A stretch of 64,000 nucleotides of DNA from positions 1 through 64,000 of the IMG/VR virus record IMGVR_UViG_3300009174_000002; one strand, given 5' to 3'. Within the stretch, counting starts at the first letter, position 1, and each line of letters starts with the position of its first letter. The position numbers were made by a program, and so were the translations under genes. Under the pieces are notes generated by a model, which was not told the DNA's origin, ran no database searches, and worked only from the letters and a program-made list of their open reading frames with translations. Shown here in pieces: positions 17,772 through 56,180 of the stretch. The stretch is from a virus.

Positions 17772-18347
17772 TTAATTAAATTCATTATCAAAACCAAATT
17801 TATTAATTATTTCAAAATTAATATTATTCTGTTTTAAAAGGGGTATTAATTTTTTTTGATAGAAATTAATTGTTCCTCTAGTAGGTTCTGTAATTAAAAA
17901 TAAAGTTATTTTAATAATATAATTTTTTAAATTAATTAATCCTTTTTCACCGGTATAAATAACTTCTTCATATTCAGAATTTGTTAATCTATCCTTGTAA
18001 GCATTGTAAGGAAATATTTTATATTTATTAGAAATCTTATTGGCATTTAATTCTATTCTTGCAATTTGATTTGATTTCTGAATTTTATACGATACATGAA
18101 AACCATCAATTTCTTTAGTATTTAACTTATGAAAATTTTTATTTCTAGTTGTACTAACACCATATATCATTTCTTTTTTATTAAACATCTCTAACTGAGT
18201 ATTAACTAAATTTATTTTTGAGGGATTTAATTTATTAGATTCTAGAATAGAAACTAAATTATTTGTTGAAGTGAAATGATATAAAACTCCTATATTCTTA
18301 TTTTCTATAAGAAAAGATTCTTTTAGTATTTTATCAATTAAACTCAT
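17772..18347 (-). CDS. Capsid-targeted ART-like protein
   Basis: A 191-residue protein starting MSLIDKILKE, a 10-residue peptide ending in L-K-E like T4 capsid-targeting sequences; a second L-I-E ends at residue 15. The body has VLYHFTST (residues 21-28), a helix NLVSILESNKL, the GVSTTRNKNF segment (63-72), a RIELNANKIS strand and an EYEEVIYTG strand. The H-x-T / STTR / ExE order is what PARP/DarT-like and R-S-E-type ADP-ribosyltransferase folds show. Its neighbour at 18344 is a paralogue; they overlap by 4 bases. NAD-dependent modification of a host target after injection is inferred; it may instead be a non-catalytic member of the fold. Confidence 0.7.
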   Translation of the reverse strand: MSLIDKILKESFLIENKNIGVLYHFTSTNNLVSILESNKLNPSKINLVNTQLEMFNKKEMIYGVSTTRNKNFHKLNTKEIDGFHVSYKIQKSNQIARIELNANKISNKYKIFPYNAYKDRLTNSEYEEVIYTGEKGLINLKNYIIKITLFLITEPTRGTINFYQKKLIPLLKQNNINFEIINKFGFDNEFN

Positions 18348-18940
18348 TTAAATTTTTGTAAATAATTTAATTCATCTTTTGTAAAAATTGTCAAATCATA
18401 AGCATCGGCTTCCTCATTATAACGTTCATCATTTTGAAAACCATTAAAGTCTAGTTTAAATTTAATTTTTTTGTCTTGTAATAGTTCAATTATTTTAAAT
18501 AAAATATTTTTATTTTTATATTCTATATATTTTAAAGGAAGTATAACTTGTATAATGTATTTGTTTAAATTAGTTAAACCTTGTTTGGTAACAATCAATT
18601 CTTCAGATTCGGTATTTTTTGTTCTAGTTTTATGAGAAAAATCATTATAGGGGATTATTTTATAATTATTAGATATTAAATTTCCATCTAAATCTATTCT
18701 AACATGAAATTTAAATAATAATTCATTACTATGATTTAAATTTAATTTTATATTCTTATTTCTAGTTGTAGAAATACCATAATAAATTTTATTATTAATT
18801 CTATATCCATTTACAGATTTTAATAAATTACTCTGTAAAATATATAATAATCTATCAAAAGTAGTAAAATGATAAAGTATTCCTATATTTTTACCTTCTA
18901 TAAGAAAAGTTTCTTTTAATATTTTATTAATTAAACTCAT
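18344..18940 (-). CDS. Capsid-targeted ART-like protein (paralogue)
   Basis: A 198-residue paralogue of the gene at 17772. It starts MSLINKILKE followed by TFLIE, so two [L/I]-x-E sites are possible, after residues 10 and 15. The ILYHFTTFDRLLYILQSNLL helix, the GISTTRNKNI segment, VRIDLDGNLIS and ESEELIVTKQGLTNL all align with the paralogue. Divergence is high, so the pair is an old tandem duplication. The C-terminus carries an extra acidic/aromatic tail. The start overlaps the upstream structural gene's stop. Same functional inference and caveats as the paralogue. Confidence 0.7.
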   Translation of the reverse strand: MSLINKILKETFLIEGKNIGILYHFTTFDRLLYILQSNLLKSVNGYRINNKIYYGISTTRNKNIKLNLNHSNELLFKFHVRIDLDGNLISNNYKIIPYNDFSHKTRTKNTESEELIVTKQGLTNLNKYIIQVILPLKYIEYKNKNILFKIIELLQDKKIKFKLDFNGFQNDERYNEEADAYDLTIFTKDELNYLQKFK

Positions 18941-20199
18941 TATTTTAATTTCTTTCTTGCTTCAAAAGTTCCAAATTGAGTTATTTGATATCTTTGTATT
19001 ACATTTCCATCTATATTTCCTGAACTATCTATATTCCAACCATTCTCATCATAAATATCAAATATACCTGAAGTCATATCTCTTACTACATCATTTAACA
19101 TAAATGAAACCATATTATTAATTAAAGTAGAAGGATTAGTATATTCAACTTGTATAAGGATATTATTAAATGAACTTTCTTTTGGATAAATCCTTAATAT
19201 ATCTCCTACTGATATAGTTTCACTAGATGCATCATAACCTATAATATCTGGTTGTAAAACCAATTGAGTATTACTGCCGGTATTATTGAAATTAAAGATA
19301 TTTTCTGTGATTACTTTTGTTTGTTTTAAGGTAGTTTGAGTAGAATCCCATATCTCTACTACTGAACTATATAATCTTCCAGCCTGAAGTGGATTGGTTT
19401 CAAAATTCCATATAGTGCCTAAAAATTTAGTTTTATCAACATCAATTATTGTTCTTCTAACCCTTAAAGGATCATATTGTATTATTGTCCCATCTGCTGA
19501 ATCATTATTAATTGCATTGGTAGGCATATCTTCCCATTCTAAATGATAAGCTCTTGTAATATCTAATACCGAGGTGGTAATATATTTAGGACTTAATAAT
19601 AAATAGTAAGTGCCATAATTTTTTTGTATATTACTTCCATTATTATTAGTAATATCAGTAGGATCAGTTAATATAGTATTAAAACAATTAGTAGGAATTC
19701 TCAAACGTTGTAGTCCAGAAGTAATGCTACTTAAGGCAGAAGAAATAGAACTATCGGAAAAAAAATCTTGTAAACCTAGAGTAGAAGTAATTTGTTTAAA
19801 ATTACAAAAATTACTATTGATAATAGTTGGTATATCTATACTTACTGATCCTATATAATCAGTTTCAGTATGAGAAGAATTTACATTAAAAGTTCTATAT
19901 CTAAAATCTAGACTATGATTATGCCCATTATCAGGCACATCTCCTATTAAACTATAATTTAAAGAACCGTCAACTGCACCATTAGATTCATCTTTTATTC
20001 TATTTATAAAGGCACGAGTAGAAGTATTCTCGGTTCTAGTTTCAGGGTTAGTATCTGAAGTATAATCTGATGTTCTTCCAGGAATAACTTGACTTTCTTC
20101 TTTTGGGAAAAAAGCTACTTGTTGCTTGGAAGGAGTAATCATAACAAAATTATCAATAGTGTTATCGGTTATTTGTATTTTAATTCTTTGATTTTGCAT
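18940..20199 (-). CDS. Tail/baseplate structural protein
   Basis: A 419-residue Ser/Thr/Asn-rich, beta-strand-dominated protein beginning MQNQRIKIQITDNT. It lacks any capsid-targeting peptide or recognised enzyme motif. Flanked on both sides by tagged genes yet of clear structural composition. It probably belongs with the baseplate/fibre genes at 22192 and 12544. Not assigned to a T4 gene. Confidence 0.65.
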   Translation of the reverse strand: MQNQRIKIQITDNTIDNFVMITPSKQQVAFFPKEESQVIPGRTSDYTSDTNPETRTENTSTRAFINRIKDESNGAVDGSLNYSLIGDVPDNGHNHSLDFRYRTFNVNSSHTETDYIGSVSIDIPTIINSNFCNFKQITSTLGLQDFFSDSSISSALSSITSGLQRLRIPTNCFNTILTDPTDITNNNGSNIQKNYGTYYLLLSPKYITTSVLDITRAYHLEWEDMPTNAINNDSADGTIIQYDPLRVRRTIIDVDKTKFLGTIWNFETNPLQAGRLYSSVVEIWDSTQTTLKQTKVITENIFNFNNTGSNTQLVLQPDIIGYDASSETISVGDILRIYPKESSFNNILIQVEYTNPSTLINNMVSFMLNDVVRDMTSGIFDIYDENGWNIDSSGNIDGNVIQRYQITQFGTFEARKKLK

Positions 20200-20241
20200 T
20201 TTTTATTCTGTAGAAATTTTTAATATATATCTTACCCAATT

Positions 20242-21327
20242 TTAATAAAACCAGATTATTTCCTCTTTACCTTTTAAAAAATTATCTATTTCAGGAAAAC
20301 CTGAACTAAATGTTATTTGTCCACGATTTTCAATTATCTCAATAAAATTATATAAAACATCAAAATTATCTAATAATTCCCCAAGAAAATGTGCTTCATC
20401 GCGTTTGGTAATTAACTTTCTTTTACTTAATAAAATTAGTGTCTCTTCTTTATTTTTTCTTATTAAATAATAACAAATATCTTCCCTTGAATTTGGAACA
20501 TTTTCGTAAACTTTAACTACAGAAATATTATCAAAAGTGCCAGAAGGATATTTTTTTATTTCCGATTCAATTCTTTTTTTCCCCTCAACTTTCCTATCTT
20601 CAATTCTTCTGGGTTTAAATAAATTATTTTCATCTTCTGATTCCTGTAATAACATAACATTAATTTTTCTATTTGTAAACCAAAATTTATTTTTTAAAGA
20701 ATACCAAATAGGAGTTAAATAAGTTTTTCCATCAATAAATAAACTTGCTCTAGTACCCCACCGTCCTCCTACTTTATTTGGTTGAGCATTAATTTTTCCA
20801 TCTACAAAATTTCCTTCTACTTTAACTTTAATCTTAGTACCTGGAGAAAAATTTTTTAACATAAATTTTTCATCTTCATTAAATTTTGCTATTCTATCTT
20901 CTATTCTTCGAGGTTTAAACAAATCATCATTTTCTTTTAATTGTGGCAATCTTTCATATCTATCTTGTATTTTACTTCTGTTAAATCCTAATCTTTTATA
21001 CCAATTTATTAATTGAGATCTATTTAAAGTTTTCTTTCCAAATGGTTCTGGACTTAATCTGACAATTACTCCATGTTTATCCGCAGCATTTAAAATAACT
21101 TGCATTCCTAATCTCCCCCCTCCTTTTTCATAGGAAGTAATACTACTTACCCATAAAGCACCATCAAAAAAACTAATATCAATTCCCACTTTGTTTTGAA
21201 TAACTATTTCTCGTGTATCAAAAGGATTAGGATAACCTTGACTTCTTATATCACTTATAGCTTCTAGAACCTCTTCTTTACTATTATTTCCATATCCTTC
21301 AAATAATATTTTAGTTATTAAATACAT
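20242..21327 (-). CDS. Tagged polyprotein: GNAT-like domain plus two NLFKPRR modules
   Basis: A 361-residue protein with three predicted prohead-protease sites. The N-terminal peptide MYLITKILFE ends in L-F-E. Residues 45-115 resemble a GNAT acetyltransferase (DGALWVSSI strand, KGGGRLGMQVILNAAD acceptor loop and helix, then INWYKRLGF). At 130-145 comes L-K-E followed by NDDLFKPRRIED. Residues 146-222 form a small beta domain shared with 37900 and 42654. At 227-245 comes L-Q-E followed by a second NLFKPRRIED, then a domain shared with 43099. Cleavage would release three mature proteins. Acetyl-CoA binding is inferred, not shown. Confidence 0.75.
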   Translation of the reverse strand: MYLITKILFEGYGNNSKEEVLEAISDIRSQGYPNPFDTREIVIQNKVGIDISFFDGALWVSSITSYEKGGGRLGMQVILNAADKHGVIVRLSPEPFGKKTLNRSQLINWYKRLGFNRSKIQDRYERLPQLKENDDLFKPRRIEDRIAKFNEDEKFMLKNFSPGTKIKVKVEGNFVDGKINAQPNKVGGRWGTRASLFIDGKTYLTPIWYSLKNKFWFTNRKINVMLLQESEDENNLFKPRRIEDRKVEGKKRIESEIKKYPSGTFDNISVVKVYENVPNSREDICYYLIRKNKEETLILLSKRKLITKRDEAHFLGELLDNFDVLYNFIEIIENRGQITFSSGFPEIDNFLKGKEEIIWFY

Positions 21328-21352
21328 TTTCTAAAATTTGTTTCCTCAGATT

Positions 21353-21766
21353 TTATATTGCTATGTTAATATATTTTATTTTATTATTTAAAAGATCAAG
21401 AAATTTCTTTTTAGGGTCATGTTTATTTTCAAATTTTATTATTCTTTCAAATGACTCTAATTGTGTAAGATTATTAATAAGTTTATATTTTCTTTCTATT
21501 ACTATTTCATCATTATTGGCAAATCCTATAATTTGTAAAGCCTGTTCTATGCTCTCGGCTTTTACATAATATAAATAATCTATAATTGTAGCTTCAAGAT
21601 GAATATATAAAATCCAAATATCTTTTACTTTATCTATACCTCCTAATCTATTTATTATTTCCTCTTTTTGTTTATTTACTTGTTCTTGTCTATTGTTAAG
21701 CCTTCGAGGTTTAAAAAGATTTTCTTCTCCTTCTGATTCTAATAATATTTTAGTTATAAGATTCAT
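21353..21766 (-). CDS. Capsid-targeted NLFKPRR-family protein
   Basis: A 137-residue protein starting MNLITKILLE (site L-L-E at residue 10), then SEGEENLFKPRRLNNR. The mature part has a basic helix, a KDIWILYIHLEATI strand, a YYVKAESIEQALQII strand-helix unit and a C-terminal helix. It is paralogous to the genes at 21770 and 43099 and to the untagged protein at 2265. It is 25 bases downstream of the polyprotein gene at 20242 in position but transcribed before it. Predicted internal head protein; function after release unknown. Confidence 0.75.
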   Translation of the reverse strand: MNLITKILLESEGEENLFKPRRLNNRQEQVNKQKEEIINRLGGIDKVKDIWILYIHLEATIIDYLYYVKAESIEQALQIIGFANNDEIVIERKYKLINNLTQLESFERIIKFENKHDPKKKFLDLLNNKIKYINIAI

Positions 21767-21769
21767 TTT

Positions 21770-22195
21770 TTATAAACTAACTTTTACATATTTCTTTTTA
21801 TTATTTAATACATCGGAATAATTTGTCTTGTTATTTTTAACGGTAATTTTAAAATCTTTATAAAAACTTTCTAGTTCATTTAAATAATCTATTACTTTAA
21901 AACAATCAGATATTTTTTCCCATGATTTTAATAATGGTTTTATGATTTTAAAACATTCATTTTTAGATTTAGCATTTACATAATAATAACCAGTTATTTG
22001 TTTATCGCCATATAAGTTTCTTTCTTTATAAGAAACATCAACACACCAAATATTTTCTATTTTTCCTTTTCCTAATATATTTATTAAAGATTCTTTTCTT
22101 TTAACTAATTCCTCTTCTCTTTTATCAACCCTTCGAGGCTTAAATAAATTTTCATCTTCTTTTAATATTTCAAGTATTTTATTTTTCAAATTCAT
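21770..22195 (-). CDS. Capsid-targeted NLFKPRR-family protein
   Basis: A 141-residue protein with the 13-residue tag MNLKNKILEILKE (L-K-E), then DENLFKPRRVDKR. The mature domain (IENIWCVDVSYKE, GYYYVNAKSKNECFKII) matches the neighbouring gene at 21353, so these two are a tandem pair. The start overlaps the upstream structural gene at 22192 by 4 bases, which suggests coordinated late expression with tail genes although the product is predicted to go to the head. Confidence 0.75.
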   Translation of the reverse strand: MNLKNKILEILKEDENLFKPRRVDKREEELVKRKESLINILGKGKIENIWCVDVSYKERNLYGDKQITGYYYVNAKSKNECFKIIKPLLKSWEKISDCFKVIDYLNELESFYKDFKITVKNNKTNYSDVLNNKKKYVKVSL

Positions 22196-23619: not shown

Positions 23620-25953
23620 TTAATACAATCCTATCCAAAAGTTTGTTGTATTAGGAGTTATTCCACTAAAAGATTGTGTACTTGGAAAACTAGTTTGTCC
23701 TGTCATAAATCCACTTAAACAAGTTGAATTTCCAAGGCCTGCTAATGAAACAGAAGTATTTGTAAACGAAGGTGTCGTTCCAATTGTAGGTGCTGTAGTT
23801 TCTGCAGATGAATTATATAATAAGGCTACAAAATACATTCCGGATGTGGCTGAATAAGGCGAAGTAAAAGCTACGCTTCCTAAATTTCCAGTTCCAAAAA
23901 AAGTAGACCAAAGCCCGCCTGTATTAGCAGATTGGGCAACTAAAGTAAGTGTTCCAGCTGACCAACTATAAAGAGCAACTCCATTTACATTGCTAGAAGT
24001 ATATGATCCTGTAGTACTTGGAACCCATTTAATTCCGGTTATTGTTTGAGCTTGTCTCAAATAAACGCCAATAAATCTCATAGTACCAGAAGATAAAGCG
24101 GCGGTGGAATTTACTTGACTAAGAGTCACGCCTAATGTTTGTCCTTTAATATTTCCACCCAGTTGAGTTTGAGATAAAACATAACTATCATCGGATACAC
24201 TGGCATTGGCTAATACAAAAGCACAAGAAGCTGCATCAGTAGTGTTTGTTCCAGGCGCTTTTGTTGGTACGGTAACCGTTCCAGTAAATTGTGGATTATT
24301 AATAGTTGGATATAAAGGATTTGTAGTGAAATTTGATAACACACCATCATGATAGTTGTCAACTACTTCATTACCAGATGCTCCATTCCATTGTCTGAAA
24401 TAAGTACTATCCAAAGCCTTAATAAAAGTACAATTACTTATCTTATTTCCAGAAGTCAAGGAACTATCCATGGATATTAAAAGTCTACTGGACTGGCCTA
24501 CAGTAGAAATAAAGGTACAAGATTTAAATACATTGCCAGTAGATGCGGTACCATAATATCTTGATCCTAGTGTAGGCTGACTAGAAACTCTAAGAGCTGT
24601 GGCAGTTGATTGATATATTTCTCCAGTAAATCTATTATTCGAACCTATGACATAGACAGCGCCATCTCCTGCTGCTGTACTCATATTAGCAAAGAAATTA
24701 TTACCTGAAAATTGACTATTGAATACATTAAAAAAAGTGCAATATGTATTTGCCCCTACAGTTTGGTTATTGAAAACTTTTACATTATATATAGGCACTA
24801 TCGGATCACATTCTATAGGTATAAAAGCTCTACTAGTGTACTCAAGAAAATTTCCTATGATTTGACTATTACCATAATTCATTTCAATGCCAGCCTTGAA
24901 AGCATTTTTTATATAGTTATTATTACAAGTTACAAATTTTCCAGTTCCATCAAAAGATACAAATAATCCCCAAGTTCCTTGTATTCCAAGACTATCTGCA
25001 AAATTATTATCAACATGAATATTTTTAGCCCTTTCATATCCAGCTGCATCATATTTTCTATTAAAAATATCAACCGCTATTCTTCCAATGTTAATAAAAC
25101 GATTATTAGTTACGTTTAAATTATACATAATATGTTGTGTAACTGTACTATCACCAATATTTGTTAAAAAACATAAAGCATCCGTATTAGCATTAGGCCC
25201 AGTAAACCAGTTATGATCAAACGTTACATTTATTATATCTGTATGAGAAGTATAAATTGTTCCTACTCCACCTTCTGCTGCATTAGTATAACCATTTTTA
25301 AAAAATAAATTACTTACTTTTGCATTTCTCATAGTTAAAAAATTTACAATTGCATAACCAAAATTTCCTACTATCATTGAAGTTGAATCTTCTCCAAGCC
25401 AATTAGTATTGATTAAAGGTGTCACTATTGTACTATAACAAAGATATTTTCCGCTTGGAAAATATACAGTTTTCCCTGAAGCAGCGGAAGTGGCTGCTAC
25501 AATGGCTGCGGTACAATCTGTACTACTATCTCCTTTTGCTCCAAACCAAGTGATATTAATTTTATCGTTCACTATTCTTTTATATCTATGTCCACCCGCA
25601 TCAACTAGTACTGTCCCGGTATTATCGGAACTAGCATTATCAGAAGGATCATACCACCAAAATCCTTCTTTTAAACTGTCTGAAGTGTAATAAATACTAT
25701 TTCCATTTGGAATTGCATTGGCAGATCTTATTGCTGATATAGTAGTAGTTTGTGCCACTGCACTTTTCATTAAAGTGACAATACCATTATTAATATTTCT
25801 CAATTTAGCGGGCGTAATTGAGTGACTTGTATTATCAGCTAAATTAACATTAATAGCTGTCCTCAAACTGTTTGTATCAGTTATAGTTTGAGTTTTTGCA
25901 GTAATAAAACTTATTGTAGACAATAAAATAAAAAAAACTTTTTTCTTAAACAT
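23620..25953 (-). CDS. Beta-helix tail spike with signal-like N-terminus
   Basis: A 777-residue protein. Residues 1-20 ([20 protein letters not shown]) look like a signal peptide. Residues 22-66 form an adaptor ([20 protein letters not shown]...) shared with the spike gene at 26347. Residues 130-165 ([19 protein letters not shown], then [13 protein letters not shown]) are the start of a pectate-lyase-like right-handed beta-helix, which continues with Asn-rich rungs to about residue 530. The C-terminal 150 residues resemble a Ser/Thr-rich receptor-binding or trimerisation domain. Likely binds or degrades a surface polysaccharide. No catalytic residues can be assigned. Confidence 0.8.
25768..25890 (-). 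repeat. Spike adaptor repeat, copy 1
   Basis: A 123-base segment closely matches 30001-30123 and encodes the shared N-terminal adaptor of the two spikes ([18 protein letters not shown] and what follows). It offers homology for exchange of distal spike domains. Confidence 0.8.
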
Positions 25954-25966
25954 TATTAAACATTAT

Positions 25967-26347
25967 TTAAATCTGAATATTATTTAAAGTAATAAAACTT
26001 GAAAGTACATTAAAAATACCTAAAACTCCTTGTTCGTTAGGATGTTTAACTGTCGCTCCAGGATCTCCATAATTTGATGAATCACTAAAAGTATAAGAAG
26101 TAGATAAATCACAAAAATAAACTTTAGGATTATTTGCAGCTGTTACTCCTGATTGGGCTAAACTTCTGCATAAAGTAGCATCAGTTTGTCGAAATTGTCC
26201 AGGTGGCCAGGGTGTGGAAGTGCTGAGCCCATTTCCAGAGCCGGTCCCGGAAGTAGAAATATAGTACTTGGTTCCCGTATAGAAATGTCGCGGGGTTACC
26301 AAAGATAGGCAGGGAAGGAATAGAAATATTGTTAATAATCTTTTCAT
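25967..26347 (-). CDS. Truncated beta-helix-type secreted protein
   Basis: The ATG at 26347 overlaps the stop of the large spike gene (TAATG), giving 126 residues. Residues 1-20 (MKRLLTIFLFLPCLSLVTPR) resemble a signal peptide. Residues 27-50 (KYYISTSGTGSGNGLSTSTP) are the usual opening of secreted right-handed beta-helix proteins. The protein ends after what would be the first rung (SSFITLNNIQI). It is much shorter than complete members of that type, so it looks like a remnant of a longer protein. The 5' part is GC-rich and the 3' part AT-rich, which suggests that a recombination junction lies inside the gene. Confidence 0.55.
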   Translation of the reverse strand: MKRLLTIFLFLPCLSLVTPRHFYTGTKYYISTSGTGSGNGLSTSTPWPPGQFRQTDATLCRSLAQSGVTAANNPKVYFCDLSTSYTFSDSSNYGDPGATVKHPNEQGVLGIFNVLSSFITLNNIQI

Positions 26348-29300
26348 TATCTTGGAACTTGTTGTATTACTGGTTCCCAATCATAATTCATACTGCCTCC
26401 GGATGTTCCGTTAGTTTGAACGGTCACGGTTGTACCAGATTTCGCCCTAAAAGTCACCATTGGGAATAAATAGTATCCTGTCGTCGATATATCGGTAGTT
26501 GGCGTACCGACAGGATTTATTTGTATAGTTCTCGCCGTCCCTCCTGGATCGGTAAACACAACTTCCAGCCAAATATGATTAGTTGTTATGGAATTCACAA
26601 GAATGTAGCCACCGGCCTCACAATATGTATCCGCAGCAAGTATCCGTCCTTGACCTTTGAATGTTGTTTGCCCTGTTTCTAACTGCCCCCTTATTGCAGT
26701 AATTGGAGGAAATCCATTGAATAAAACTGTATCAGCATTTACAAGAAAATTACTCATTTTGCTGCCAACAGTTCCAAATGACCCATTCTTCCCTGCTCCT
26801 TGTATTGAGAATCCAGAATCCAATGCCCCGCCCAAAACTATTGCTGTATCCGGATTTGTGCGAAGACTTAATCCATTTTTTGCTGTAAATTGAAAAATTG
26901 ATTGATTTGGATTTATGTTATCAGCATAAGGCACGGCATAGTACGATTGAAGATTGTTAGTGACGCCAGACCCAAATATCTTTGGATTCGTAAATGTGGT
27001 TAATGCTCGTATGCTTACTTGCGGGATCAACGGATAAGTGGTAACCGCATGTGTTGATGTAAAAAATATATTCCAAGACCCTCCCGAATATTTTTCATAT
27101 GTAACAGTAGTACCGGTAACTTTCACGCGAAAACTGTCATTTGTGGACCAGTTTGTACCTCCAAGACCTGACGATATTAAAGTTCCTGATTCTGCGATAT
27201 TTATATTGTTGGCGCCACCGGAAGAGCCAAAAAAGTAGATGCCATAGTTGATTGAGTGATAGTCATTTTGAACCGGATTGGTTGAAAGTCCAAATATGAC
27301 ATTTCCATATGTAGAGATAGCCTGGCAGCTGTAATACCCATCCCCGGAAGAAAGTACTTTGTCGGGCACCGCCTGAACAGTAAACGAAAGAGCATCAGGA
27401 CCACTCTTTGTGATATTAGAACCACTGATTGATCCTGTACCGGTTAATCTCCCCCATCCTAAATTTGTCGTGGGTCGAGAAACTAATATACCGGGTTGGC
27501 TGACTGTGACTATAAATCTAGGGTCTGCTCCGTCGTCAATACATTCAATATTGTATACATTAAGAGCGGAAGAAGAATTGAATGTGCCAGACACTTTTGT
27601 ATTGTCGAGCAATGTAAAATTATGGCCATTTGCTACAATCTCGAGTCTATATATACGTCCAACAGTTGGGCGAATAATCTTTTTTATAGTGTCGTCCGAC
27701 GACAACGACTTGTATTGCCAACGGGCAACACCTAAGTCAAGTGTATCGCCCGTTAACGCCGATCTATAACCATATCCTCCCATAGAGTCGACTAAAGGGG
27801 TTGCCGATCCATTGGGAGTGGTTATTGAACTGGCTACATCGCCGAAATTCTGGTTGAACACCGGCTTATTAATATTACCTGAGAAATTTCTTGTAGTGCC
27901 ATATGTTGAAAAAATGCTCGCCCCTGAGAAGTCCATGTTGGCGCAATTGGTTATTGTTAAAGTAGATGGGCTGATAATACATCCGCCCGTAAATCGCCAA
28001 TTACTACTATTTGTGAACGTCATTGCACCTTCGTAAAAATGTCCGCCTACGACTGTCTCTCCAAAACTGGCCCCAGATACATCAAAAGATGTTCCATTGT
28101 GATTGCCATTTGGGTTAGCGATTATACCATGACTATTATTTGATCCACCTGTAAATTTGAAAGCTGTTGTATTGCTATTCACATTGACGCCAATGTAATT
28201 ATTATTGCCGCCGTCATCAAGAATGGCCGTTGTATTGCTTTTGAAGAGTCCGCCAAATATGGAAACGTATTCACCTAGCGTATCACTTTGCAATCCTATT
28301 ATATTGCTATAGAAATTACAATCGTAGATATTCCCGGCGTTGAATGTGGAAGAAGTGTTAGCAAAACGCATGCCCTTGTTTAAATTCGAAAAATCGCAGC
28401 CCGTGATTGAGAAATATTTAAAACCATTGACATTGATCGCCACTTGATTCGATGTATTCCCGAAAAACTTCAAACCCTTTATTCGTACGGAGTCTGATTT
28501 GATATCAAAAAAATTAAAGGTGCTGGAATTGGATGCCTTTAAATTGGCATTATACCCTTCGAATGAAAGAGCCTTAGTGATATTGATCAACGGACTATCT
28601 ATAGCATATACACCACTTGGAAATACTACCGCTGCCGGATATGGGCTACGCTGTGCCGCTGCAATACAACTATCGATCCCCCTTCTATTTGCCGTAGCAT
28701 TTGCCGTGTTCCCTGTTGTGTCTACTCCGGGATAATCGACAACATTGTATCTGAAAAGAATAGAAGGATAAGGTATATTTCCCCATGTTCCATTATCAAA
28801 TGGTACCTTACCCGTTGCCGTCCCGGGTGCAGATAATACACCTGGCGTTGTTGTCGTGTATGCGGGAAGATCGGCAGCAAGTTGCGCAGATGTCACGTCC
28901 GTTGGCGTAGCGGTAGACCCCGTGTTGTTACCCTTGTAGGAATGGGCCGGCATTGTCGCCATTTGTGCGTTACCTACAGAACCATTCGTTGGCGTCCTTG
29001 TATTCGTGAGTCGGCTATCATTCCCCAGGACCACCTGCGTGCCGGATGCGTCTCCGGAGGCGGGAACATCCTTTACCGCCGCTGTTCCCAAACCAAGGTT
29101 TGTGCGGGCGGTCCCCGGATTTGTGACATCAGAAAGATTGTTTGCTCTATATAACCACAATCCCGTAGTGTCCAATGGGCTTCCTCCGCCTACACTGTCT
29201 TTCCAGGCAAACGTACACGTAGATCCTTTGCAGAGAAAGATACTATCATGACTGCGATATCCCCATCCTACCCATTTACTCGTAGTATCGCCAGGGATAA

Positions 29301-29790
29301 CAACTGGCCAAAAAGTATTATCCCATCTTAAAAATATTTGACTGTTTCCCGTCCCTGGAGCATTGACGATACCGGGGGTTGTGGAGGTAAATGGGGTTGT
29401 CGCAGTAGCCACGTCGCTCATCATCGCAAAAGTGCCAGGCTTATCGGGGATAGTATCGCGCTTATGCGTTCCACTAGCAGATGGGAATATGATATTGGCA
29501 ATATTGCTCGTTCCTGGCCGCCACATCCATAGGCCACTATCAGCGGCGACGAAGGCATTTCGGGTTCCATCGTTGACGCCTATCTGGGTCTTATTGAATG
29601 CATTGGCCAGATCGCCGACTTGAAAATAACGGGATGCCATGTTTGTAATTAATATCGGATTTCCAAAGGCATCATCCAGCTCCATATCTTTACCGGTTCC
29701 TATATTACCAGCACCAAGCACCTGATCGAGGGTGGGAATAGCCCCAGAACTATCCGTCATAATGAAAATGCACGTATTCCCCTTGCACAG
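26190..29790. other. GC-rich island within the spike locus
   Basis: Composition changes sharply here. By hand count, bases 28861-28920 contain 37 G/C of 60, while 8941-9000 contain 11 of 60. The island covers the distal part of the large spike and the start of the small gene behind it; boundaries are approximate. Codon use follows the same shift. This is best explained by recent acquisition of the receptor-binding region from a higher-GC source. Confidence 0.8.
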
Positions 29791-30183
29791 ATATAAACTA
29801 TCATTACTTTTATATCCCCATGAGAACCAATTATTAGCGGTATCAGTTATATTTAATTTTAAATCTATTCTATTACTTAAACTAGTAGTATCTAATGTTG
29901 AAGATAATGTAGATAATTTTATTTTAAATGTAGAAAATCCAATCCGTCTAAAAACTAAAGTATCATTACTTAAGTAAACGCTATCCATAGCATAAGCCTT
30001 CATTAAATTAGCTATTCCATTAATTACATTTCTTAATTTTAAAGGGGAAATTTGATGAGTCGTATTATCAGCTAAATTAATATTAATAGCTGTTCTTAAA
30101 CTACCTGTATCTGTTATGATTTGTGAAAATCCAACAATACTTGAAATTAAAAATATAAAAACAACTAAACTTTTTTTGAACAT
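26347..30183 (-). CDS. Large mosaic beta-helix tail spike/fibre
   Basis: A 1,278-residue protein. Residues 1-20 are signal-like (MFKKSLVVFIFLISSIVGFS), and residues 22-65 are the adaptor shared with 23620. A module WGYKSNDSLYLCKGNTC near residue 120 is repeated as WGYRSHDSIFLCKGSTC near 310. Between and after these are short fibre-like repeats (NLGLGTAAVKDVPASGDASG, typical of phage tail fibres). Residues 480-800 form a pectate-lyase-like beta-helix (YNVVDYPGVDTTGNTANATA, AAVVFPSGVYAI). The C-terminal 400 residues are beta-rich lectin-like segments. The first 130 residues are AT-rich and the rest GC-rich, so the gene is a hybrid. Probably the host-range determinant. Confidence 0.82.
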   Translation of the reverse strand: MFKKSLVVFIFLISSIVGFSQIITDTGSLRTAININLADNTTHQISPLKLRNVINGIANLMKAYAMDSVYLSNDTLVFRRIGFSTFKIKLSTLSSTLDTTSLSNRIDLKLNITDTANNWFSWGYKSNDSLYLCKGNTCIFIMTDSSGAIPTLDQVLGAGNIGTGKDMELDDAFGNPILITNMASRYFQVGDLANAFNKTQIGVNDGTRNAFVAADSGLWMWRPGTSNIANIIFPSASGTHKRDTIPDKPGTFAMMSDVATATTPFTSTTPGIVNAPGTGNSQIFLRWDNTFWPVVIPGDTTSKWVGWGYRSHDSIFLCKGSTCTFAWKDSVGGGSPLDTTGLWLYRANNLSDVTNPGTARTNLGLGTAAVKDVPASGDASGTQVVLGNDSRLTNTRTPTNGSVGNAQMATMPAHSYKGNNTGSTATPTDVTSAQLAADLPAYTTTTPGVLSAPGTATGKVPFDNGTWGNIPYPSILFRYNVVDYPGVDTTGNTANATANRRGIDSCIAAAQRSPYPAAVVFPSGVYAIDSPLINITKALSFEGYNANLKASNSSTFNFFDIKSDSVRIKGLKFFGNTSNQVAINVNGFKYFSITGCDFSNLNKGMRFANTSSTFNAGNIYDCNFYSNIIGLQSDTLGEYVSIFGGLFKSNTTAILDDGGNNNYIGVNVNSNTTAFKFTGGSNNSHGIIANPNGNHNGTSFDVSGASFGETVVGGHFYEGAMTFTNSSNWRFTGGCIISPSTLTITNCANMDFSGASIFSTYGTTRNFSGNINKPVFNQNFGDVASSITTPNGSATPLVDSMGGYGYRSALTGDTLDLGVARWQYKSLSSDDTIKKIIRPTVGRIYRLEIVANGHNFTLLDNTKVSGTFNSSSALNVYNIECIDDGADPRFIVTVSQPGILVSRPTTNLGWGRLTGTGSISGSNITKSGPDALSFTVQAVPDKVLSSGDGYYSCQAISTYGNVIFGLSTNPVQNDYHSINYGIYFFGSSGGANNINIAESGTLISSGLGGTNWSTNDSFRVKVTGTTVTYEKYSGGSWNIFFTSTHAVTTYPLIPQVSIRALTTFTNPKIFGSGVTNNLQSYYAVPYADNINPNQSIFQFTAKNGLSLRTNPDTAIVLGGALDSGFSIQGAGKNGSFGTVGSKMSNFLVNADTVLFNGFPPITAIRGQLETGQTTFKGQGRILAADTYCEAGGYILVNSITTNHIWLEVVFTDPGGTARTIQINPVGTPTTDISTTGYYLFPMVTFRAKSGTTVTVQTNGTSGGSMNYDWEPVIQQVPR
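30001..30123 (-). repeat. Spike adaptor repeat, copy 2
   Basis: A 123-base counterpart of 25768-25890, encoding TDTGSLRTAININLADNT and the following helix in the N-terminus of the large spike. Confidence 0.8.
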
Positions 30184-43098: not shown

Positions 43099-43497
43099 TT
43101 AAAATTCTATTCCTACTAATTTAAGATATGAAGTTTTCTTATTAAAAAAAGGATTAGAAATAAATGTATTCATATGTTCAATTACAAAATGAAAAAGATT
43201 AAAATAACTTAATAAGGGTATTACAGCACTTCTTCTTCCTTTATATTTAGGAAATTTTGTTTTAAAATATTCTTCGGCTTTTTCTTTATCATTTCTTCTA
43301 ATTAAATATATTGCTTCATCTCCTATTACTTGAATAACCCAAATATTTTCAAACATTTCACTTCCATATTTTTCTAATCCATCTTTTATTATTTTCCTTT
43401 TTCTTTCTTTTTCCTTTTGTTTTCTATCTTCAATCTTTCTAGGCTTGAATAGATTTTCTTCTTCAGATTCAAACAATATTTTATCAACTAATTTCAT
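43099..43497 (-). CDS. Capsid-targeted NLFKPRR-family protein
   Basis: A 132-residue protein with the tag MKLVDKILFE (L-F-E) and then SEEENLFKPRKIEDR. The mature part (EMFENIWVIQVIGDEAIYLIRRNDKEKAEEYF) is the best preserved example of the 'NIW-V' domain found in four other tagged genes and in the untagged protein at 2265. It starts a tagged run and faces the divergent gene at 43530. Confidence 0.77.
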   Translation of the reverse strand: MKLVDKILFESEEENLFKPRKIEDRKQKEKERKRKIIKDGLEKYGSEMFENIWVIQVIGDEAIYLIRRNDKEKAEEYFKTKFPKYKGRRSAVIPLLSYFNLFHFVIEHMNTFISNPFFNKKTSYLKLVGIEF

Positions 43498-46632: not shown

Positions 46633-46992
46633 TTATATTTCTTCTATTATATATCCTTTAGGTACTCCTTGTTCTGTGTAAGGAATATTTCTATTCATAT
46701 CTCTATCTTCTTCTTGTGCTTTTTGTCTTTCTACATTTAAATAAGAACGCTTAGCATATCTTTTCAGATAATTTAAATCATCAAATCCTCCCAACCAATC
46801 TTTACTATTTCTATCGGTAATTCTATATAATTGGAATGGTTTACTAGATTCTTTTGCATCTTCAACTTCTTCTGAAGTGTCAGAGTAAAATTCATCTCCA
46901 TCAAATTCTTTTATAATAACTGTCTTACCAGAATACTTTTCTAAAAGATTTTTTATAACAAATATTTTTCTTTTATTTAATATTTTTTTCAT
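46633..46992 (-). CDS. LLEKYS-tagged predicted head protein
   Basis: A 119-residue protein starting MKKILNKRKIFVIKN, followed by LLEKYSGKTVIIKE ending in I-K-E at residue 29. The mature part starts FDGDEFYSDTSEEVEDAKES (acidic) and continues with LYRITDRNSKDWLGGFDDLNYLKRY. It is 8 bases downstream of the polyprotein gene at 47001. It lacks the NLFKPRR motif. Function unknown. Confidence 0.68.
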   Translation of the reverse strand: MKKILNKRKIFVIKNLLEKYSGKTVIIKEFDGDEFYSDTSEEVEDAKESSKPFQLYRITDRNSKDWLGGFDDLNYLKRYAKRSYLNVERQKAQEEDRDMNRNIPYTEQGVPKGYIIEEI

Positions 46993-47000: not shown

Positions 47001-48290
47001 TTAAATATGAAAAAATTCAAGTATTTCAGCCATAGCAGCAAAAACATGTAATAATTCTCCGGCTACCTTCATTCCAGGTCTGGCTTTAACTTTTATTTTT
47101 TCTATAGCTGCTTTTTTATTTGAATTACTCATTTTTGAAGTATCTAAATTCATAATAACCTCTAAAGTTTCCTCAATATTTAAATTTTCTAAAGTATTGG
47201 TTATTTTTTTTATATCATAAATTTCTACTTGTGTAATTCCTTCGTTTGGATCTTTTGATTTATGATAATATTTTATTGGAAGTTTGGGTACTGGTTTATC
47301 TTCAAATATTACTTTCTTACTAGAATACTTTTCAAGAAGTTTGGTAAGATTTTGTATTTCTTTTTGTTTAACACCTTCTTTTTTGTGTTTATTTAAAATA
47401 CCATCTTGTTTAGTTTTTTGAATATTTTCATTTTTCTTATTACGAAAATACTCTACTTGCTTTAACCTTTTATTTGCTTCGTCTTCATTATCATAAGGTC
47501 CTCCTAAATTCTTTCCAGAATGACTTTTAACATAATATTTTCCATTTTCCTTTTTAACAAACTCTTTTAAAAAACCTTTATTAACTGAGTTAGTTAATAC
47601 TTTATTTTTTTTAGTATTTTGTTTTTCTTCCTTTAATATTTCTTTTTTCATTTCAGAAATTATAGGTATTATTAAATTTAATTCTTTCATGATTTTAGAT
47701 TCATCATATTGAGAGAAATATTTTATAAAATCGCTTAAATAAATATATTCTATATCTAATGTCTTATTATTAAATATTGTACTTAAAAAATTACTTCTTG
47801 AAGCCAATTTACATATTAAAGGAAGTTTTTGAGGATTCTTTTTTAATTTTTTAAAAATTAACATAATATTTAACTGCATATCTTTTAAATCATCTAAAAA
47901 ATCTTCTTGTACTTTCTGTACACCTAATTCTTTTAATAATTTTTTATTTTCATGTAAAGTATATGTTTCATCATCATCTGGAGTATCTGTGAATTCTACA
48001 CTATATAGAAATTTCCATTTTTCTTGTTCCCAACTCCATATAGCTCTGTTGGTATTTATAAAACCATTATTCTCATATTCTATTTCTGCAATAATAAAAT
48101 CATTGTGCAAAACAATTTTAATAATTTTACATTTTACTTTATTGTCACCAGTATAAACATCTATAATACTTCCTTTAGGAAATTTTCTAACAATATCCAA
48201 TTGTTTTTCTTTTAACTCATCTTCTCTATCCTCTATTCTTCGAGGCTTAAAGATATTTTCTTCGGATTCAAATATTAAATTATCAAACAT
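47001..48290 (-). CDS. Tagged polyprotein with both tag classes
   Basis: A 429-residue protein. It starts MFDNLIFE (I-F-E at residue 8), then SEENIFKPRRIEDRE. Residues 30-105 form a beta domain (KGSIIDVYTGDNKVKCKIIKI). Residues 240-285 contain GFLKE, then NGKYYVKSHSGKNLGGPYDN and EANKRLKQVEYF, a motif I associate with phage proteins. Residues 317-330 are the second tag class, KLLEKYSSKKVIFE (I-F-E at 330). The last 100 residues are helical. At least two and possibly three mature fragments are predicted. Confidence 0.72.
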   Translation of the reverse strand: MFDNLIFESEENIFKPRRIEDREDELKEKQLDIVRKFPKGSIIDVYTGDNKVKCKIIKIVLHNDFIIAEIEYENNGFINTNRAIWSWEQEKWKFLYSVEFTDTPDDDETYTLHENKKLLKELGVQKVQEDFLDDLKDMQLNIMLIFKKLKKNPQKLPLICKLASRSNFLSTIFNNKTLDIEYIYLSDFIKYFSQYDESKIMKELNLIIPIISEMKKEILKEEKQNTKKNKVLTNSVNKGFLKEFVKKENGKYYVKSHSGKNLGGPYDNEDEANKRLKQVEYFRNKKNENIQKTKQDGILNKHKKEGVKQKEIQNLTKLLEKYSSKKVIFEDKPVPKLPIKYYHKSKDPNEGITQVEIYDIKKITNTLENLNIEETLEVIMNLDTSKMSNSNKKAAIEKIKVKARPGMKVAGELLHVFAAMAEILEFFHI

Positions 48291-48304: not shown

Positions 48305-49990
48305 TTAAATTGATACTCTTTTCTTTCTTTCATCTATAGCATTTAAAATGTATTCATCTATTTCTTCTGATCCTTTGTCTACATAATCATCCAATAAACC
48401 TTTTGTTGTTGTTATTGAATATACTTGTTTATTTTGCGCTCTAGCCCTCATTCCCATTCCATGAAGCATAGAAGAAGTACTTCTGGTTTGATCAAAATCA
48501 TCAAAGTTTATTTCTTCATCTGAATCTTGATCAGTTGCTAATAACTGTAAATTTTCTATATCTAAAGTTTTTCTATAGGAGCCATCATTATTTTTTTTAA
48601 ATTCCTCTCCACCTACAAATACATATACTGATTGATTTCTGCCTATATTTTGGTATTTATTAATTAGATATTGTATTGTAAAATTACCTTTTGCAGTTTT
48701 AGCTAATTTATCAGTTAATTCTTTTATTTCTTTTTCAGAAAATTTTGTTTTAAGCAGATTTAAATCTTCTGTACTTTGTAGTAAATCTGGTATAATTAAT
48801 AAAATTTGAGAAAACTTTTCTTTATCTAAATTTTTTATAAAATTTAAAACTGTTTTTCTGCTATCTGGTAAATTAGTAATGGAATCTTTATTTATTTTAA
48901 AAAATTGTAACATTTGTTCAAAAGGAAGTTTAAATACTAAATTTAAAATAGCATGATAATTAGTATTGTATTCAAATTTATCAGGCTTTTTCATCATAGC
49001 ATCTACCAATGGTTTAGCAATAACTGCACCTCTATCTTCCATTCTTCTAGGTTTAAAAAGATTATTTTCTTCATCTTCAAATATCACTTTTTTATTGGAA
49101 TATTTTTCAAGTAATCGAACTAATTCATTTAATTTTTTTGCTTCTTTAATATTAATTTCTCCATTGCTCAATAAATCTAATATACCAGGTAAGTTTATAT
49201 CTGTTTGAGGCATAACATTTCTACTTGGCGCACCTAAAACTGGTTTATTTTTTATTTGCATGTTTTTAACATTATTCCAAATATAATCAGCGGTATGATC
49301 AGGAGATTGATGACCTAATTCGGATTGAAAAACCTCAAAAACTTCATCATTCATTGTATTTAATACATAATCTTTTATTTGTTTTTCATTCGCTTTAAAA
49401 AGATTAGTACCTTGAACATTTTCAGTAGGTACGGTTCCTGTAGAAACATAAATTGCTTCTTCGGTAGCCTTTAAAGCAGATAAAGGCTTTATACCTTCTT
49501 TTTCTAAATTTACAGCATCTAAATGACAATCTGGATTAATTACATAAACTTGTGACCAACGATGATGACCATCAATTATATTTTTTTCATTAAAAGTTAG
49601 AATTTCATTATTTCCTAATTTTATAGGTCCACCTGATAAAATTAATTTTATTTCATCCGGTTTTTTTAAGGGATAACTTAAAGATTTAGTTATATCTACT
49701 TCGTTTTGTGTAGGATGTAAATTCTTAGCGGGTATAGTAGTTTTACTTATATTGAATTTATCGTTTTCATTATTTTTATTCTTCTTTAAAAAAGTTTGTA
49801 ATTTTTCATTACCAGGAAGTTGAGATAAACCTTTTACAAACTGTATATAAGGTTTATTTGTTAATTTATCTAATCTATTTTCTAGTTTATGTTCTTGGGT
49901 AATTTCGGTAATAGGTATTCTTTCAGATTCTTTTCTTAATTTTGAATATTCAGATAATAATTTTTTAATATGTTGTTTTTTCTTACTCAT
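48305..49990 (-). CDS. Tagged polyprotein with ParB-like domain
   Basis: A 561-residue protein. The N-terminal peptide HIKKLLSE (L-S-E at residue 14) starts it. Residues 80-170 contain a ParB/Srx-like unit: IPAKNLHPTQNEVDI and then NIIDGHHRWSQVYVINP with DGHHRW at 140-145. Residues 290-320 are LVRLLEKYSNKKVIFE followed by DEENNLFKPRRMEDR; both tag classes are joined at one site (I-F-E at 305). The second half (residues 321-561) is helical, then Asp/Glu-rich with a final MLHGMGMRARAQNKQVYSIT strand. Cleavage would separate a ParB-like protein from a helical protein. Confidence 0.72.
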   Translation of the reverse strand: MSKKKQHIKKLLSEYSKLRKESERIPITEITQEHKLENRLDKLTNKPYIQFVKGLSQLPGNEKLQTFLKKNKNNENDKFNISKTTIPAKNLHPTQNEVDITKSLSYPLKKPDEIKLILSGGPIKLGNNEILTFNEKNIIDGHHRWSQVYVINPDCHLDAVNLEKEGIKPLSALKATEEAIYVSTGTVPTENVQGTNLFKANEKQIKDYVLNTMNDEVFEVFQSELGHQSPDHTADYIWNNVKNMQIKNKPVLGAPSRNVMPQTDINLPGILDLLSNGEINIKEAKKLNELVRLLEKYSNKKVIFEDEENNLFKPRRMEDRGAVIAKPLVDAMMKKPDKFEYNTNYHAILNLVFKLPFEQMLQFFKINKDSITNLPDSRKTVLNFIKNLDKEKFSQILLIIPDLLQSTEDLNLLKTKFSEKEIKELTDKLAKTAKGNFTIQYLINKYQNIGRNQSVYVFVGGEEFKKNNDGSYRKTLDIENLQLLATDQDSDEEINFDDFDQTRSTSSMLHGMGMRARAQNKQVYSITTTKGLLDDYVDKGSEEIDEYILNAIDERKKRVSI

Positions 49991-50023: not shown

Positions 50024-50461
50024 TTATTTTAAATTATTATCTCTATCAAACTTTAATTCTTCAATAATTATATTTAATAATTGTTTTTCGTTTTTAATAC
50101 CCTTATATCTATTTTTTATCTCATCTTTTTTACCCTTAAACCAATGATATTTTGTAACAAATACTTTTTCTTCTTTTTTATTCCATATAAAAAGATAATT
50201 AAAAAGTAGAGTAGTATTAACTATTCTAGTTTTTAAATGAATTCTAATTTCATTTTTCTTTTTTATTTGTGTTAAATCATAAGTGTTAAGATCAACGATG
50301 ATTATATTTTCATCATTTCTCAATAAATTAGTTAATTTTGTTCTAAATTCATCCCTCATTTTTTCTTCAGGTGTTCTCAAATCAGGCCGTGTAGTTAAAC
50401 GTCTAGGCTTGAACAAATTTTCTTCTTCAGATTCTTTTAAGATTTTATTTACTAAATCCAT
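50024..50461 (-). CDS. Capsid-targeted NLFKPRR-family protein
   Basis: A 145-residue protein with tag MDLVNKILKE, then SEEENLFKPRRLTTR. The mature part (TKLTNLLRNDENIIIVDLNTY, EIRIHLKTRIVNTTLLFNYLF, EKQLLNIIIEELKFD) resembles the pair at 31912/32317 in its final amphipathic helix and order of elements. Function unknown. Confidence 0.76.
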   Translation of the reverse strand: MDLVNKILKESEEENLFKPRRLTTRPDLRTPEEKMRDEFRTKLTNLLRNDENIIIVDLNTYDLTQIKKKNEIRIHLKTRIVNTTLLFNYLFIWNKKEEKVFVTKYHWFKGKKDEIKNRYKGIKNEKQLLNIIIEELKFDRDNNLK

Positions 50462-50471: not shown

Positions 50472-50744
50472 TTATTCTGAAAAATAATATGGCCAAAGCA
50501 AAATTATTCCTTCAAAAACTTTTTCACTTTCAGTACCATTTCCAAAAATAATATGTTGAAGAAAGTTAGCAAATTTTTTATCAGGAATTTGTCCTAATTT
50601 GGCAAGAAATTCAGATTTTATTCGTTTTTCATCTTCTAAATTTCTATTTTCTTTTTTTTGTATTCTCCTAGAATTAAAAGGATTTACTTCAGATTCATTT
50701 AAGATTCTAGTTATTAAATCCTTAGATTTTAATATTGATTTCAT
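50472..50744 (-). CDS. Capsid-targeted small protein, diverged motif
   Basis: I place the start at the ATG at 50744 (MKSILKSKDLITRILNE) because the promoter-like element CCATTATTTAAAG overlaps the alternative upstream ATG at 50771. The tag ends in L-N-E at residue 17. The following SEVNPFNSRRIQKKE is a diverged NLFKPRR motif. The mature part is about 70 residues and helical (FLAKLGQIPDKKFANFLQHI). Perhaps a shortened member of the 30599 family. Confidence 0.65.
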   Translation of the reverse strand: MKSILKSKDLITRILNESEVNPFNSRRIQKKENRNLEDEKRIKSEFLAKLGQIPDKKFANFLQHIIFGNGTESEKVFEGIILLWPYYFSE

Positions 50745-50749
50745 TTTAA

Positions 50750-50762
50750 CTTTAAATAATGG
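50750..50762 (-). promoter_or_regulatory. Late-promoter-like element
   Basis: The coding strand reads CCATTATTTAAAG, identical to 37296-37308. It lies 6-18 bases upstream of the preferred start at 50744, closer than at other genes, so the start may be leaderless or further inside. Confidence 0.5.
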
Positions 50763-50814
50763 TTTTACCATATTTATTCTAAAGGTTTAAAAATAACTTT
50801 TATCAGATATAACA

Positions 50815-52464: not shown

Positions 52465-52501
52465 ACATAAAAAAAAGAGTAGTTTATAATAACTACTCTT
52501 T
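52465..52501 (-). terminator. Intrinsic terminator after the sheath gene
   Basis: The hairpin AAAGAGTAGTT / AACTACTCTTT is followed on the minus strand by TTTTTATGTTTTG. It begins 22 bases after the sheath stop. Confidence 0.82.
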
Positions 52502-52522
52502 AAACACTTTTTAGATTAAATT

Positions 52523-55306: not shown

Positions 55307-55352
55307 TATTTATCTAATATTTAAAGTTTTATAAAATCTCAAATGATTTTTT

Positions 55353-55366
55353 CTTTAAATATTGAA
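55353..55366 (-). promoter_or_regulatory. Late-promoter-like element of the sheath gene
   Basis: The coding strand reads TTCAATATTTAAAG, then AAAAAATC, 47-60 bases upstream of the sheath start, in the gap behind the 55402 gene. Confidence 0.5.
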
Positions 55367-55401
55367 GAGAAATAAAATAACTTAACTGTAGTTATAAAAT
55401 A

Positions 55402-55656
55402 CTAAGCTATTTTCTGTACTTCATAGAAGGGTTTGATAGAACTATGTAAAAAACTACCTACTGATGGAGCTTCTAAAAATTCTTGATATACATTTAGAGG
55501 TACACCACTATATTCATACATACCACCATTCTTAAAAGTAATAGTAAGAACTTCGGTTTCATCGTCATATTCTGCATTAATTATATTAGAAGAAACTACT
55601 GGATTATTATGTATTTCTTCATTTAATATTTTTTTTATAGTTTCGTTTAGATTCAT
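55402..55656 (-). CDS. Capsid-targeted KTSC-domain protein
   Basis: An 84-residue protein with the 13-residue tag MNLNETIKKILNE (L-N-E), then a KTSC-like domain: NIINAEYDDETEVLTITFKN, GGMYEYSGVPLNVYQEFLEA, SVGSFLHSSIKPFY. KTSC domains are small units of unknown function, also found fused to lysyl-tRNA synthetases and common in phages. The fold would fit entirely in the mature product. It has no NLFKPRR motif. It lies between the sheath gene and the degenerate-tag gene at 55662. Confidence 0.75.
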   Translation of the reverse strand: MNLNETIKKILNEEIHNNPVVSSNIINAEYDDETEVLTITFKNGGMYEYSGVPLNVYQEFLEAPSVGSFLHSSIKPFYEVQKIA

Positions 55657-55661
55657 TTATT

Positions 55662-56180
55662 TTATTTTAATTCCAAATATTGTATAAGGTTTGATTCAGG
55701 ATCTTGTACCCATTCGGCAATTCCTTCAATTATTTCTTCTATGGTCCCCCACTCTTCCATATCAACATATGGAGTATAATTAATGAAAGATTCAGGATCA
55801 TCTTCTCTATCAGCTCTATCATCTTCAGTTATAGGAGTTTCCCAAAAATAATTGCCCTTTATTGTAAATGAACATACAAATGCACTATTTCCATTATTTG
55901 GTTTTTTACCTAATAAATCTCTATTTCCAAATTCAAAAGTAGCTTTTAAATCATGTTTTAGAGGAATTATTATTTTTTTTATCATATATGGTTTATCCCC
56001 CATTTCGATATCAGTATCAATCATAAACTTATATATTTTTTGTAATACAGGATTTTGTAAAATCTTTTTAAGTTGAATATTTTTATCCTCAATCCTTTTT
56101 TTTATTTTTCGAGGTTTGAACAAATTTTCATCTTTGTTAGATTTTTTTAACATAAATAATATTTTTTTACTTAAATTCAT
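55662..56180 (-). CDS. NLFKPRR-family protein with degenerate tag
   Basis: A 172-residue protein starting MNLSKKILFMLKKSNKD and then ENLFKPRKIKKR. The position where other members have [L/I]-x-E reads L-K-K-S, so the processing site is lost although the tag and motif are otherwise kept. The mature-like part (NPVLQKIYKFMIDTDIEMGDK, KIIIPLKHDLKATFEFG, TIEEIIEGIAEWVQDPESN) shows a final helical arrangement like the 31912 family. It may be targeted but uncleaved, or a decaying copy. Confidence 0.7.
   Translation of the reverse strand: MNLSKKILFMLKKSNKDENLFKPRKIKKRIEDKNIQLKKILQNPVLQKIYKFMIDTDIEMGDKPYMIKKIIIPLKHDLKATFEFGNRDLLGKKPNNGNSAFVCSFTIKGNYFWETPITEDDRADREDDPESFINYTPYVDMEEWGTIEEIIEGIAEWVQDPESNLIQYLELK

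Follow-up and report, generated by a model that had tools for sequence, protein, structure and literature searches.

Candidate T4-type capsid-targeting propeptides on a large, modular set of predicted internal proteins in a T4-like myovirus contig

The window analysed here comprises bases 1-64000 of IMG/VR virus record IMGVR_UViG_3300009174_000002, a contig of 115,516 bases (115.5 kb) with 27.8% G+C, which belongs to a T4-like myovirus as marked by genes for the portal (phrog_213), the major capsid protein (phrog_138), the tail tube and the sheath. Between positions 17772 and 56180 lies a family of genes whose products begin with short, similar peptides ending in or containing [LI]xE, which we will call tags. 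An initial annotation had put this family at about 25 small genes, and we count 24, all on the minus strand: 22 with a tag of type A (for example MNLINKILKE) and two with a second type, B, ending in LLEKYSGKKVILKE. Behind most type-A tags there is an acidic stretch and then a second shared motif, [ND]LFKPRR[IL]xxR, which was absent from the initial annotation. The genes are as follows (class-i refers to a domain described below).

17772-18347, minus: type-A tag MSLIDKILKE, 181-residue body (YHFT..GVSTTRN), weakly ADP-ribosyltransferase (ART)-like (Tox-ART-HYD1, E 0.0098, below cut-off)
18344-18940, minus: type-A tag MSLINKILKE; paralogue of the 17772 gene (40% identity)
20242-21327, minus: type-A tag MYLITKILFE; internal [LI]xE-LFKPRR units at residues 136 and 236; probable three-module polyprotein
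21353-21766, minus: type-A tag MNLITKILLE, LFKPRR, class-i domain
21770-22195, minus: 13-residue type-A tag MNLKNKILEILKE, LFKPRR, class-i domain
30599-30988, minus: type-A tag MDLVKQILKE, LFKPRR
31006-31383, minus: type-A tag MDLINKILTE, FFKPRR; paralogue of the 30599 gene
31912-32316, minus: type-A tag MNLINKILKE, LFKPRR
32317-32721, minus: type-A tag MNLISKILLE, LFKPRR
37311-37907, minus: type-B tag ending in LLEKYSNKKVLLKE; LFKPRR at residue 128, the only internal one with no [LI]xE nearby
37900-38703, minus: 14-residue type-A tag ending in KILNLLKE; internal ELNE-SDD-LFKPRR unit at residue 143
38703-39101, minus: type-A tag MNLINKILLE, LFKPRR, class-i domain
39102-39785, minus: type-A tag MKLIDKILLE; motifs like those of an R-S-E ART (IYRAIHLR, SYQSWSF, EVVCKI), by eye only
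40712-41650, minus: 14-residue type-A tag ending in IISKLLNE
41650-42210, minus: 13-residue type-A tag MSLNTRIKKLLQE; kinase-reminiscent body (phrog_4301, no assigned function)
42654-43094, minus: 13-residue type-A tag MNLINKILLVLKE, LFRPRN
43099-43497, minus: type-A tag MKLVDKILFE, LFKPRK, class-i domain
46633-46992, minus: type-B tag ending in LLEKYSGKTVIIKE
47001-48290, minus: short tag MFDNLIFE, IFKPRR; internal type-B copy LLEKYSSKKVIFE
48305-49990, minus: 14-residue tag ending in IKKLLSE; internal type-B copy with LFKPRR (KKVIFEDEENNLFKPRR) at residue 311; DGHHRW by eye; phrog_2859 (E 1.7e-6)
50024-50461, minus: type-A tag MDLVNKILKE, LFKPRR
50472-50771, minus: type-A-like KDLITRILNE at residues 17-26 (start codon uncertain), PFNSRR variant
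55402-55656, minus: 13-residue tag MNLNETIKKILNE on a KTSC domain (residues 22-78; PF13619, E 2.5e-21)
55662-56180, minus: degenerate tag without E (MNLSKKILFMLKK), LFKPRK

The tagged set reaches beyond this interval, to contig position 113054, and amounts to 38 genes in the whole contig (29 of type A and nine of type B). Tags of exactly ten residues, which had been described as the commonest form, make up 12 of the 22 type-A tags in the interval and number 15 in the contig. All 15 have L3, [IV]4, I7, L8 and E10, and 14 have K6. Type-B tags are longer, at 23-31 residues. An [LI]xE is found within the first 34 residues in 37 of the 38 genes, at residue 8-14 for nearly all of type A. When the first 16 residues are compared all against all, 92 pairs score at least 36, versus 0-3 for shuffled sequences and none for internal segments. 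An equivalent N-terminal test gives 156 pairs here (null 5-6) and, on T4 as a control, 18 pairs (null 5-7), recovering IPII/IPIII and Alt/Alt.-1. The motif is carried by 32 of 93 minus-strand genes (5-7 expected), with no excess on the plus strand (2 of 47, about 2 expected). The conserved residues are encoded by synonymous codons (L3 by TTA, CTA, CTT or TTG), so that selection appears to act on the peptide and not on the DNA. A profile of the tag searched against IMG/VR gave no confirmed relatives.

The ends of the tags resemble a site in the capsid protein, whose gene lies downstream of a probable scaffold gene.

60236-61969, minus: major capsid protein (gp23 type; phrog_138, E 1.6e-56, and alignment), site QILKE/N at residue 63, the slash marking the predicted cut
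62158-63633, minus: probable prohead scaffold, by its position upstream of the capsid gene; several [LI]xE sites; no family matches

The matching capsid site reported initially (RQILKE at 63) is indeed there: in QILKE/N the residue before the predicted cut is E63, which does not vary among the five relatives aligned, and P3 in these is L or V. Tags ending in KILKE/S share with it the P4-P1 residues ILKE. At 69 of 69 distant T4-like loci the capsid protein fits the pattern [ILVMF]xE behind ENQ, and its P4 is L or I; since the search pattern fixed part of the capsid consensus, P4 and the completeness of 69/69 are the informative parts. The capsid precursor is thus predicted to be cut at the same consensus as the tags. 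By capsid protein, the nearest cultured relative among the matches listed is Flavobacterium phage vB_FspM_immuto (about 35% identity), and uncultured relatives are closer (L006 at 77%, L007-L011 at 64-68%).

A gp21-type prohead protease, which the initial annotation had singled out as the enzyme to look for and whose absence would have spoken against its interpretation, is encoded just outside the window, at 66677-68563. It is an S77 protease. Its match to PF03420 (T4 gp21 type), over the Pfam cut-off, falls into two pieces that share a reading frame; it also matches phrog_207 (head maturation protease), and it keeps the GELDHP and GISSR motifs with the His and Ser. Directly after GELDHP the protease is split by about 370 residues, which start with C, end in TGN before S and have HINT- and LAGLIDADG-like sequence, while the protease of relatives is uninterrupted. 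By all sequence signs the insert is an intein with predicted splicing, and the protease would probably be inactive until the insert is spliced out.

The bodies behind the tags had been called unrelated, and this is largely the case, as BLAST finds similarity in only about ten pairs among 59 modules. It does not hold for ten modules that profile iteration brings together in one diverged domain of about 110 residues (class-i), and there are small paralogue groups besides. Pure paralogy as the origin of the tag was rejected on the BLAST result for most genes and kept for about ten modules. One class-i module (2265-2675, plus strand) has an LFKPRN motif and lacks a targeting tag. The predicted class-i fold is confident (predicted local distance difference test, pLDDT, 80.5); in the model the tag forms a helix of its own at low confidence, and a linker lies where the cut is predicted. 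The fold has no significant matches in the PDB or viral libraries. Recognisable domains include KTSC (55402) and a GNAT acetyltransferase (110261), where the recognisable tag stands behind the GNAT part.

The whole unit, [LI]xE-acidic-[ND]LFKPRR-xxxR, occurs 34 times in the contig, and 13 of the occurrences are deep inside proteins. An [LI]xE lies no more than nine residues before 12 of these 13 internal LFKPRR copies, against 1.9 for random positions in the same proteins (maximum 7 in 5000). Five copies are found in one 1174-residue protein (82762-86286 of the record, outside the window), in which we found no MuF or other Pfam match at E <= 0.1. Its counterpart in L006 is a single protein of 712 residues, whose similarity is confined to residues 2-73 and 661-791 and to the neighbouring gene 81337, and therefore the modules between and behind these parts look inserted. 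The non-capsid gene 81337-82758, also outside the window, and its relative repeat the extended capsid cleavage context (KLKEDMTTADMASFDT versus ILKENNSTADMAVFDT; LKE..TTADMA.FDT), which apart from these two and the capsid protein is absent from the genomes checked. The relative's gene (L017) is at 24991-27129 of its contig. This repetition would connect the locus of the polyprotein with the protease predicted to cut the capsid protein, and the cleavage-like units inside proteins suggest polyproteins. It is possible that the prohead protease also acts as a polyprotein processor, with LFKPRR-headed modules entering the prohead as a single chain and being cut apart there, and with LFKPRR as a second signal; we put this forward tentatively, holding it slightly less probable than its opposite. 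Candidate roles for such a signal are site marking, DNA binding and core docking, the latter two because LFKPRR supplies positive charge. The NLFKPRR unit was sought in six relative contigs and found in none, and three exact DNA matches elsewhere are not in credible tagged genes.

In the T4 capsid-targeting sequence, residues 4 and 7 serve targeting and residues 8 and 10 processing (PMC9026906). The likeness to it that was proposed initially is borne out by [IV]4, I7, L8 and E10, present in every one of the ten-residue tags here. We consider it highly probable that the tags are T4-type capsid-targeting propeptides, cut after [LI]xE, and the best reading of the set is a large, modular variant of the T4 internal proteins. 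A tagged protein would be made late, bind to the prohead core by the amphipathic helix at its N terminus, become enclosed as the shell forms and then be cut after [LI]-x-E by the S77 prohead protease. The body, in most cases beginning with the acidic stretch and NLFKPRRxxxR, would stay in the head with the DNA and probably be ejected into the host. Where several cleavable modules are fused in longer proteins, the same protease would separate them. Targeting, cleavage, retention in the head and ejection are what we infer for this phage, and delivery of the bodies to the host seems to us fairly likely.

Evidence from virions comes from the cyanophage S-CREM2, which is T4-like and has an S77 protease. 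We matched its published virion proteome (PMC10665884) to its genome. All four proteins in which we found a T4-form N-terminal tag are in the virion, versus 46 of 193 others (p = 0.004): the SAM hydrolase (MKDFDSFLEE), the cytidylyltransferase (MKNFSSFLTE), ORF13 (MKDLHSFLTE) and ORF136 (MQTFSMFFSE). A kinase in the proteome has VKRFDAFLTE at its annotated start, so the tagged virion proteins include three enzymes; a looser pattern, allowing internal starts, gives p = 0.026. A Cas9-like virion protein (7704-10313 of the S-CREM2 record, L115) has the tag-like stretch LRFASFMAEAA no more than about 25 residues from the annotated start, pointing to either a mis-called start or an internal site.

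The tagged genes also turn over around a core that is conserved in L006. The shared core span measures 36.7 kb in L006 versus 77.6 kb here, and much of the difference is in gaps between conserved genes, many of them holding tagged genes and some untagged ones. The gap between sheath and tube is 6855 bp here versus 846 bp in L006 and contains five tagged genes, and that from the tube to 36725 is 7896 versus 748 bp and contains eight. Internal proteins of T-even phages are similarly exchanged fast around a fixed core (PMC9026906, PMC3012670).

Other lineages carry tags of their own. Immuto has two sets, MENFDLKKFLVENKLT.. and MKKSQLRQIIKEAL.., a seven-gene cluster in L069 has MKKSELKQIIKEEL, and L109 has MIKLKKLLxE. 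In the huge phage LR756504 a body homologous to that of 17772 bears the tag MKYIKIFENF, which recurs across about 14 genes of that genome. In 69 IMG/VR loci that contain a T4-like capsid gene, [hydrophobic]2-x-E stands at residues 8-15 in 163 of the 1053 genes on the capsid strand, versus 45-49 expected (maximum 66 in 200 trials); the count includes core proteins such as the head maturation protease (MSKSLLIEY..), and the pattern was defined with the tags of this phage and the clusters already in view, the loci themselves being independent of this phage. Across T4-like phages, then, the tags are lineage-specific, with the same predicted cleavage consensus kept. A NUDIX hydrolase (L093:10521-10922; PF00293, E 9.9e-11) starts with MLKLKDLLFE and adjoins two similarly tagged genes.

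The alternative that survives best, which we consider unlikely, is that the tagged proteins are scaffold-type components of the prohead core, degraded or lost after cleavage, and not effectors delivered to the host. Several of them are small, genes at scaffold or protease positions in other T4-like phages have an N-terminal [LI]LxE form (MAKSDLLKEAIADAK.., MSKSLLIEY..), and T4 IPIII also helps head assembly (PMC9026906). However, close relatives differ in their tagged genes but keep the core head genes, enzyme domains stand behind tags, and in S-CREM2 the tagged enzymes are in mature virions. It is much less probable that the tag is cut or bound by a factor other than the prohead protease, such as a host peptidase or an adaptor, which would steer the proteins elsewhere in the infected cell. 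Such a factor would suit a tag that in this phage is read from sequence alone and an LFKPRR motif without known function, but T4 gp21 would be expected to cut after [LI]xE, the same site is retained in the capsid protein, and the tagged S-CREM2 enzymes are found in virions. Still more improbable is a relic of recent gene duplication without targeting function. The ten or so modules with one diverged domain and the several small paralogue groups are what duplication would leave, yet the tags are nearly identical on mostly unrelated bodies with codons that differ synonymously, the unit is also found inside proteins, and in LR756504 the homologous body bears a different tag. A translation-initiation or mRNA element, for which the position at gene starts and the very AT-rich genome might speak, has a negligible probability and was rejected, given the synonymous variation, the internal copies far from starts, the match to the capsid cleavage site and the lack of a plus-strand excess.

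Several observations weigh against the capsid-targeting interpretation. The gene at 55662-56180 (MNLSKKILFMLKKSNKDENLFKPRK) has lost the glutamate and lacks [LI]xE, the sole such case among the 38. T4 internal proteins are basic, and the tagged proteins have a median isoelectric point (pI) of 8.75 versus 6.58, but without the LFKPRR motif the two do not differ (p = 0.74); since the basicity comes from that motif, we have withdrawn basic mature proteins as support. Most bodies are without recognisable function. The ART reading of 39102 found no support in databases or the PDB, and a single-sequence model (pLDDT 46) is too poor to test it, so we leave it as a motif reading; for the kinase reading of 41650 there is a weak comparison with an immuto candidate and no meaningful PDB hit. 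The S-CREM2 p-value is optimistic because the pattern was written after seeing the listed N-termini, and the authors of that proteome note that co-purification is possible (PMC10665884).

The T4 internal proteins, about four in number, are the textbook example of proteins that are delivered along with the DNA of a phage, and IPI among them blocks a host restriction enzyme. With IPI, IPII, IPIII and Alt the present set shares a ten-residue N-terminal propeptide, hydrophobic at 4 and 7 and with [LI]8-x-E10, as well as one tag on divergent bodies, a gp21/S77 protease, a capsid site of the same kind and high turnover of bodies. The differences are four tagged genes in T4 versus about 38 here, MKTYQEFIAE versus MNLINKILKE, and, in this phage, the second, longer tag type, LFKPRR behind most tags, cleavage-like units inside proteins and basicity only through LFKPRR. 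The ejection (inner head) proteins of phiKZ and SPN3US are also many, and several are cut by the prohead protease. Their cleavage consensus is [A/S/G]xE-like, and the tagged genes here do not combine a long propeptide with [A/S/G]xE but have short propeptides with [LI]xE. In those phages propeptides are mostly longer than 100 residues, and in SPN3US the majority of the head proteins remain uncut (PMC5694885, PMC10052503). Phage polyvalent and MuF-fused injected proteins likewise have several domains per polypeptide and are predicted to travel in the head (PMC9503650), but here predicted prohead-protease sites lie between the domains and 82762-86286 has no MuF. S-CREM2, with its SAM hydrolase, APH/ChoK-like kinase and cytidylyltransferase, is alike in having an S77 protease and MKxFxxFLxE-type tags on virion enzymes; it differs in having only about five tagged proteins and a tag that is T4-like in sequence, and the passages of PMC10665884 considered here contain no description of the tag.

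Targeting tags and variable internal proteins are known from T4. What is new here is how large the set is, that there is a second tag, that an LFKPRR unit occurs with internal sites, and that tags differ from one lineage of T4-like phages to another; we found no earlier description of these features in the open-access literature searched. If our interpretation is correct, an unannotated part of many T4-like genomes would become a list of candidate injected proteins, among them anti-defence factors and host-takeover enzymes. S-CREM2 suggests that the tag can explain enzymes detected in virions by mass spectrometry, and therefore candidates could be ranked before experiment. Should the polyprotein reading and the lineage-specific tags also hold, head-delivered arsenals would be readable from the genome itself.

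The relationship to immuto, the low G+C and the lack of clear Shine-Dalgarno sites suggest a host in Bacteroidota; no relative was found among the genome contigs searched for a host. The defence-system models that were run gave no match. Amid the tagged genes, the untagged gene 42220-42654 has restriction-type nuclease similarity (MTES_1575, E 8.9e-8, below cut-off; DUF559, above cut-off), and a homing-endonuclease-like gene (16819-17724, phrog_314) lies directly downstream of the tagged pair 17772/18344. Two long minus-strand proteins, encoded at 23620-25953 and 26347-30183, have similar, signal-peptide-like N-termini (one of them MFKKSLVVFIFLISSI..).

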